The notes under the pieces: generated by a model | The model's input: only the letters and a program-made list of their open reading frames with translations | Database searches by the model: none | What the model was told of the DNA's origin: nothing | Shown: piece by piece, positions 16,357 through 17,540 of the stretch | Layout of the letters: each line of letters opens with the position of its first letter | Numbering within the stretch: position 1 is the stretch's first letter | Source: an uncultured Eubacteriaceae bacterium | Lineage (GTDB): Bacteria; Bacillota; Clostridia; Lachnospirales; CAG-274 | Assembly (NCBI GenBank): GCA_947086655.1 | Contig: CAMTZM010000001.1 | Span: forward strand, 124,001-188,000 | Direction of reading: 5' to 3' | Length of the DNA stretch: 64,000 nt | Translations under genes and position numbers: made by a program

Positions 16357-16797
16357 GTGTCTTTTTTTACATCTTTGGATACAAGCGCATCGGCGCTTAC
16401 AGCACAGCGTTTGAGAATGGATATAATTAGTCAGAATATGGCTAATTCAGATACAACAAGAACAGAAGATGGAACGCCGTATAAAAGAAAAACTGTTATA
16501 TTTGAGGAAATAAGTAACAGACCTGTATTTGCCGATTATCTTGACAAGGCAATGTATTCAAAGGCAGGATACGGAGTTCGTGTCTCACGAATTGTTGATG
16601 ATAATACACCAGGTTCAATAACATATGACCCAACACATCCTGACGCAGACGAAAACGGTTACATAACTAATTCCAATGTAAATATTGTAGAGGAAATGGT
16701 AAACATGATTTCAGCAAGCCGTTCATATGAAGCAAATTTAACAGCTATTTCGACTACAAAAGCAATGATTAACAAAACTCTTGAAATTGGCAAATAG
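16357..16797 (+). CDS. flgC: Flagellar basal-body rod protein FlgC
   Basis: This 146-residue rod protein starts at GTG behind AAGAAGGTGA. It has the rod motif ISQNMANSDTTRTEDG near 27-42 (normally NxANxxT) and the FlgC C-terminus NIVEEMVNMISASRSYEANL at about 110-129. It follows flgB by 17 bases. Unusually, fliE does not follow directly; a 431-base structured gap intervenes. Confidence 0.96.
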   Translation: MSFFTSLDTSASALTAQRLRMDIISQNMANSDTTRTEDGTPYKRKTVIFEEISNRPVFADYLDKAMYSKAGYGVRVSRIVDDNTPGSITYDPTHPDADENGYITNSNVNIVEEMVNMISASRSYEANLTAISTTKAMINKTLEIGK

Positions 16798-17228
16798 AAG
16801 TTAAATATTTCTGTCTTAGCCGTTAAATTTTATAATGGTATTAATGGCGTGTCTGAAATTTATTTGATTTTTAGATATTTTTATGTTTTTTAGAAGAATT
16901 TTGTAATATGTTTAAAAATGTTTTTGGTTATACAAATTGAACAAATTTTAGTTTGTATAGCATAATGATTTTAGAAAACCTCTTTAGAGATTTTCTAAAA
17001 TCATTATGCAAATTCATTTAACTAACATAAAACCGTGGGGCACACGGAGTTAGCTCGTTTAAACACTAATTAATTGTTTGAACGAGAAACATTGCCTTTA
17101 TTAAATATAGGCGGCAGTAGTATGCCGTAAGTTGAATGTCTTTTAGTTGAATACATGAACGTATGTATTCTAAAAATATTTGAGTTAGCATATAAAGGAA
17201 ATACTGATTTAAACCGGAGGAAAAATAA
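16798..17228. other. Highly structured intergenic region between flgC and fliE
   Basis: The 431 bases have no supported ORF; the one short minus-strand frame lacks support. They contain several strong inverted repeats. 16929-16936 pairs with 16952-16959. A perfect 19-bp stem joins 16960-16978 with 16991-17009. CCGTG/CACGG is nested inside CTAAC/GTTAG at about 17022-17054. A 12-bp stem CTCGTTTAAACA/TGTTTGAACGAG lies at about 17055-17087, then CGGCA/TGCCG at about 17113-17128 enclosed by ACATT/AATGT, and GAATACAT/ATGTATTC near 17150-17170. I could not match it to a riboswitch class I know. Confidence 0.7.
16960..17009. repeat. Perfect 19-bp inverted repeat (long hairpin)
   Basis: GCATAATGATTTTAGAAAA at 16960-16978 is exactly complementary to 16991-17009, with a 12-base loop that can itself form CTCT/AGAG pairs. 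No T-run follows, so it is not a normal terminator. It may be a processing or stability stem or a remnant of a small mobile element. Confidence 0.75.
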
Positions 17229-17540
17229 ATGAACACTATTACAGATTCCATACAGGTTCAGCCGCTAAAGCTTGATAATGGAGATAAAGCGGCTTTTAAG
17301 AGTTATTCTACTAATTCGTTTGAGTCTTTTTTTAAAAAGGCTATGGAATTATATAATGAAACAAATATATATCAAAATGAAGCCGAACAAATGCAGCGTG
17401 ATTTTGTAACTGGTAAAAGCGATGATATTATTGCGCTTAATATGGCACAGGCAAAGGCAAGCTCCTCAATTCAGTTTACTACTAATATTACTTCAAAGGT
17501 TTTAGCCGCGTATCAGGAAATTATGCGTATGTCAATATAG
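17229..17540 (+). CDS. fliE: Flagellar hook-basal body complex protein FliE
   Basis: The 103-residue protein has the FliE pattern SFESFFKKAMELYNETNIYQNEAEQMQRDFVTGKSDDIIALNMAQAKASSSIQ and a C-terminal VLAAYQEIMRM. FliE links the MS ring to the rod. CCGGAGG precedes the ATG. It begins the long flagellar block after the structured gap. Confidence 0.95.
   Translation: MNTITDSIQVQPLKLDNGDKAAFKSYSTNSFESFFKKAMELYNETNIYQNEAEQMQRDFVTGKSDDIIALNMAQAKASSSIQFTTNITSKVLAAYQEIMRMSI

Follow-up and report, generated by a model that had tools for sequence, protein, structure and literature searches.

Why the flagellar genes flgC and fliE should be separated by a long and strongly folded stretch of DNA is the question raised by this locus. 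In the 64-kb stretch analysed here (the window), a gap of 431 bp separates the end of flgC, at 16797, from the start of fliE, at 17229; the flanking genes are assigned by their Pfam matches (FliE, Flg_bb_rod and Flg_bbr_C). The preliminary description offered three options, a leader or riboswitch controlling fliE–flgE, a noncoding RNA, or a decayed mobile element. The comparisons below favor the third, support the second in a literal sense, and leave the first without support: the structured RNA of the gap is very probably a TnpB guide-RNA scaffold (omegaRNA or reRNA), the right end of an IS200/IS605-type element without its protein genes. The features referred to are as follows.

16798–17228 (+): whole flgC–fliE gap; relatives L033–L036 have gaps of 28–30 bp
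16928–16959 (no strand): second AT-rich hairpin, abutting the palindrome; weak (z −1.7)
16960–17009 (no strand): 23-bp near-perfect palindrome with loop TTTA; candidate left-end hairpin, by analogy with the left end of the IS605 in L170
17029–17128 (+): TnpB omegaRNA/reRNA scaffold (IS200/IS605-type right end), very probable from the R1 model match and end-to-end alignment with TnpB-linked scaffolds
17033–17047 (+): stem P1, CCGTG GGGCA CACGG; identical in the aligned relatives, covarying to CCGAAG..CTTCGG in L244
17054–17086 (+): stem P2, 12 pairs (the 12-bp stem of the preliminary description); homologous to omegaRNA P2, with double-sided changes
17092–17114 (+): stem P3, TTGCCT/AGGCGG; homologous to CCACCT/AGGTGG of the relatives, with compensatory changes
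17125–17128 (+): right-end terminal tetranucleotide CCGT, from the alignment; TCAC or TCAA in the relatives
17129–17148 (+): putative guide position in flanking DNA, from the guide length of ~16 nt (PMC8612924)
17149–17170 (no strand): hairpin GAATACAT/ATGTATTC; outside the conserved scaffold and absent from the R1 model

Structure of the gap and its departure from related genomes

All of the stems previously named are found in the gap and can be given coordinates. CTAAC/GTTAG (17022–26/17049–53) encloses CCGTG/CACGG (17033–37/17043–47), the 12-bp stem lies at 17054–65/17075–86, ACATT/AATGT at 17089–93/17135–39, and GAATACAT/ATGTATTC at 17149–56/17163–70, with the GCC/GGC and CGGCA/TGCCG stems both present as well. 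The impression that pairing exceeds chance is borne out by the folding of the whole gap (z = −9.7 against dinucleotide-preserving shuffles), and the segment 17015–17228 alone, which leaves out the large palindromes, folds at z = −5.05. The strongest structure had been overlooked; it is the palindrome at 16960–17009, the longest hairpin in the 64 kb, with shuffled windows giving 1–2 hairpins of at least 14 bp. The listed stems do not all belong to one structure: the relatives described below share P1, the 12-bp pairing and GCC/GGC, whereas CTAAC/GTTAG and CGGCA/TGCCG are not conserved. A scan of the gap for promoters gave eight sites, all minimal matches, against 3.7 expected in shuffles, which is uninformative, and no intrinsic terminator was found on its + strand.

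In the closest relatives (L033–L036, with flgC 78–79% identical) flgC and fliE are spaced by 28–30 bp, e.g. AAATTGTTAAAACCGGAGGAGTGAAATT, and these clean gaps hold no conserved leader. A short spacer of this type is split in the window, with AAGTTAAA at the left, TTTAAACCGGAGGAAAAATAA, with the fliE ribosome-binding site, at the right, and about 400 bp in between. Probably only the ~8 bp at the left and ~20 bp at the right are native gap DNA, and the insert extends roughly from 16806 to 17207. Its outer parts (16806–16927 and 17129–17207) are AT-rich, and its ends, TTAAATATTTCTG and CTGATTTAA, are faintly inverted-repeat-like. A search of the genome revealed no second copy of the gap or of the palindrome–scaffold unit; because the element is single-copy, its boundaries are not definable from a second copy, and comparison with the Ruminococcus albus and phage copies of the scaffold gave none either.

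Homology with TnpB guide-RNA scaffolds

The first clue to the identity of the insert was a 30-nt segment, 17030–17059, that is 93% identical to a site in a genome of the same family (G036, locus L005), where the counterpart sits directly behind a TnpB C-terminus; the BLAST search with the gap against the 48 family genomes otherwise returned mostly AT-rich noise. Scaffolds with the same core were gathered from viral contigs, a phage record and the R. albus plasmid pRUMAL01 (L207), in which the scaffold follows a gene annotated 'RNA-guided endonuclease TnpB'. A search of viral contigs with the exact 15-mer CCGTGGGGCACACGG returned mostly chance coding matches along with some real scaffolds, and a pattern made from the window's own P2 gave no match in them. 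The window aligns with the collected scaffolds end to end, through P1, P2, P3 (GCCT..AGGC) and the closing AGTATG, and the sole departure at the closing end is in the final tetranucleotide, which is CCGT in place of TCAC. From the sequence this is probably an inactivated cleavage site, and because CCGT matches neither TCAC nor TCAA, the precise position of the right end is not certain.

A covariance model, R1, was constructed from 14 scaffolds with the window excluded. Nine of the 14 loci have a TnpB reading frame ending 12–24 nt upstream, two others (a second L128 copy and L154) lie beside a TnpB gene or a broken one, and L130, L164 and L214 lack a full TnpB frame in the stretch examined. In the 64 kb the model has a single match, at 17029–17126 on the + strand, which covers all 94 positions (47.7 bits, E 9.4e-11). 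Across the genome, its best-scoring match (58.4 bits) falls at the 3′ end of the one intact tnpB, a sequence that was not used for training. As a control of specificity, 43 of 48 family genomes have no match at E 0.001, and the matches in G017 and G036, and most of those in G038, are 40–50 nt behind a PF07282 match.

The stems have also changed in a manner expected of a structured RNA, with 14 of the 24 pairs in the training alignment changed on both sides. When the window is included the count is 17 of 24, although this alignment, having been fitted to the model, is biased in its favor; for each alignment none of 500 shuffles reaches the value and slid controls are far lower. The window keeps 21 of the 24 consensus pairs at 63–72% identity to its relatives (~35% divergence), with 5–6 double-sided changes relative to L005, L132 or L205. 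If as many paired positions were substituted at random, 12–13 pairs would survive (P about 1e-4), and against L154 the random expectation is 15 pairs (P 0.002). Retention of pairs despite this divergence indicates that selection acted on the structure as the sequence diverged. The scaffold evolved as a functional guide RNA, and either its nuclease was lost fairly recently or the scaffold is used in trans; selection on the window copy may be wholly past, predating the loss of tnpB.

Absence of the protein genes and probable origin of the insert

An intact TnpB scaffold is encoded at the 3′ terminus of tnpB or just downstream of it. No tnpB is present in the gap or nearby, so that what can be claimed is descent from a TnpB scaffold and not membership of an intact TnpB system. 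The gap contains no significant TnpB remnant (best tblastn E 0.056), no Y1 transposase gene between the ends, no long reading frame on the + strand, and none of the genome's TnpB or TnpA domain matches. The peptide FLKSLCKFI-stop encoded in the gap was considered as a TnpB C-terminus and rejected, its likeness being vague and its length too short. The lack of tnpB and tnpA, the terminal CCGT and the clean 28–30 bp gaps of the relatives together argue that the insert is a lineage-specific mobile-element remnant.

Elsewhere in the genome, a TnpB profile search detects a single intact gene, on C29, together with a deleted copy on C17 and a fragment on C74. The C29 protein is 390 amino acids long, has the Pfam domains OrfB_IS605 and Cas12f1-like_TNB, and by eye contains D, E and D residues, as an active nuclease would; it uses a scaffold that differs from that of the window in type and sequence. 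The genome also holds several Y1 transposase genes, and further orphan scaffolds at C40, C44 (twice) and C52, with another copy, at C65, cut by the contig end. Right ends that have outlived their tnpB are thus common here.

Several of these loci, and one in another genome, have features of their own. At L171 (G000:C17) tnpB has a large internal deletion and the scaffold at its 3′ end is intact, an intermediate towards the orphan scaffolds. A decayed scaffold at C44 (L232, 1501–1594, − strand; R1 39.4 bits) has a visibly broken P1 and is possibly an older relic. At C40 (L229) a group I intron (1685–2026, − strand; Rfam Intron_gpI, 57.6 bits, gathering threshold 50) lies ~90 bp upstream of a TnpB scaffold (1501–1591, − strand), with no tnpB in the stretch read; by sequence the pair is a putative IStron or IStron remnant, and similar sequence is present in L227 and L179. 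In G041, a genome without any PF07282 match, an orphan TnpB-type scaffold with the covarying P1 CCGAAG..CTTCGG (L244, 1501–1582, − strand) occupies the leader of a greA-like gene, ~30 bp before the start codon.

The most likely course of events is that a short element of the IS200/IS605 family, or part of one, entered the flgC–fliE gap in this lineage; tnpA and tnpB are both missing from it today, and the right end encoding the guide-RNA scaffold remains. In an intact element TnpB binds this RNA, uses the DNA just beyond the right end on its 3′ side as the guide, and cuts empty donor sites, keeping the element in the genome. In ISDra2 such RNAs arise from the 3′ end of tnpB, the right end and ~16 nt of flanking DNA that serve as the guide, and TnpB with its RNA cuts DNA matching the right-end flank, protecting the element from loss (PMC8612924). 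The scaffold in the window reads in the sense direction of the flagellar operon and is presumably part of its transcript. With its terminal tetranucleotide altered and no cognate TnpB, it should be incapable of moving or guiding, and is most likely an orphan with little or no activity.

A regulatory leader or riboswitch for fliE–flgE would fit the strong folding and the position upstream of fliE, but the insert is missing from the gaps of L033–L036 and the homologous RNAs lie behind tnpB genes, not upstream of flagellar genes; this leaves the leader or riboswitch unsupported, and we consider it extremely unlikely. The gap also has no Rfam match: the scan is empty at gathering level, and permissive thresholds bring up nothing beyond chance microRNA-type matches to the palindrome. 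The genuine scaffolds L005 and L207 likewise go unrecognised by Rfam, and as it has no model for TnpB scaffold RNAs its silence is explained and is no evidence against the scaffold identity; by the same token, the missing match is weak evidence against a riboswitch. The well-kept stems and the position within a flagellar operon could also reflect a domesticated guide RNA, on which a TnpB or a nuclease-dead TnpB-like repressor (TldR) would still draw in trans to control flagellar genes or others, and flagellin-regulating TldRs are known, including csrA-linked examples in gut Firmicutes (PMC13418256). These are nuclease-dead relatives of TnpB that repress flagellin with guide RNAs of their own; their guides are effective at 6 nt, and guide RNAs acting in trans are suspected (PMC13418256). 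However, the TnpB profile detects no TldR gene in the genome (C29 is intact, C17 and C74 are fragments), the C29 protein retains its D/E/D residues by eye and uses a different scaffold sequence, and the scaffold locus is not conserved between flgC and fliE of the relatives. The guide pattern (17128–17143) has no second match in the genome at 0–1 mismatches and just two at 2 mismatches, fewer than its backward control. Domestication is improbable, and possible only as trans use of the scaffold RNA by another TnpB. Its most specific form, in which the orphan is a working guide RNA derived from the flagellar transcript and loaded in trans into the remaining TnpB or into an unassembled TnpB or TldR, is more improbable still; if it were true, flagellar transcription would license RNA-guided DNA binding, and orphan scaffolds such as the greA-leader copy in G041 would form a class of stand-alone guide RNAs.

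A mobile-element relic leaves part of the insert to be accounted for, because the insert (~400 bp) is longer than the scaffold and palindrome together (~170 bp), with the outer 150 bp at the left and 80 bp at the right unaccounted for. Non-autonomous IS605 derivatives, MITE- or PATE-like, consist of a palindrome and a right end without protein genes. A refinement compatible with the relic explanation is that the insert contains such a miniature element, with a palindromic left end and an omegaRNA right end, which moved in this form with TnpA supplied in trans, as opposed to a full element stripped of its genes after insertion. The palindrome is 20 bp from the scaffold and resembles the left end of the genome's IS605 in L170 in size, loop and stability (folded as DNA, −17.6 versus −18.3 kcal/mol, with TTTA loops in both and similar arm lengths), which suggests a miniature element of ~170 bp of which 16960–17009 may be the left end; the Y1 transposase genes and the orphan scaffolds at C40, C44 (twice) and C52 are in keeping with this. 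Against it, the palindrome–scaffold unit has no second copy, the right end reads CCGT and not TCAC, and the left end is assigned by analogy, and we regard the refinement as tentative, with the balance tipping slightly against it. Two viral contigs, L204 and L206, were considered as a non-autonomous parallel and set aside, both being the same phage region and offering no proof of mobility.

Relation to known systems

The window scaffold is most likely a real but largely ordinary mobile-element relic, and it illustrates that an RNA between genes of a core operon, strongly folded and silent in Rfam, can turn out to be the stranded guide-RNA scaffold of a TnpB. Such orphans are easily found with a covariance model of the scaffold type, and they can be dropped from riboswitch searches or examined as possible guides in trans; if trans use by TnpB or TldR maintains the structure of orphans, they would amount to an overlooked reservoir of natural guides.

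Among known systems, the TldR–gRNA flagellin repressors (PMC13418256) share with the window a guide scaffold of TnpB type and a flagellar context, but the window's genome has no TldR gene, no guide target was found in it, and no flagellin gene adjoins the scaffold. The MITE- and PATE-like IS605 derivatives likewise have a palindrome and right end without protein genes; the window differs in being single-copy, with unproven boundaries and a right end that is probably inactive. Compared with TnpB omegaRNA/reRNA of the ISDra2 type (PMC8612924), the window has the right-end scaffold, the conserved stems, the orientation on the tnpB strand and the guide position directly 3′, although it lacks adjoining tnpB and tnpA genes, has CCGT in place of TCAC and has a longer P3 loop. 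Within the same genome, the orphan at C44 (L183/L230) ends in TCAA, has an extra P2 hairpin and lies behind an unrelated gene, and like the window it is a CCGTGGGACACACGGGGTTAG scaffold with no tnpB beside it.
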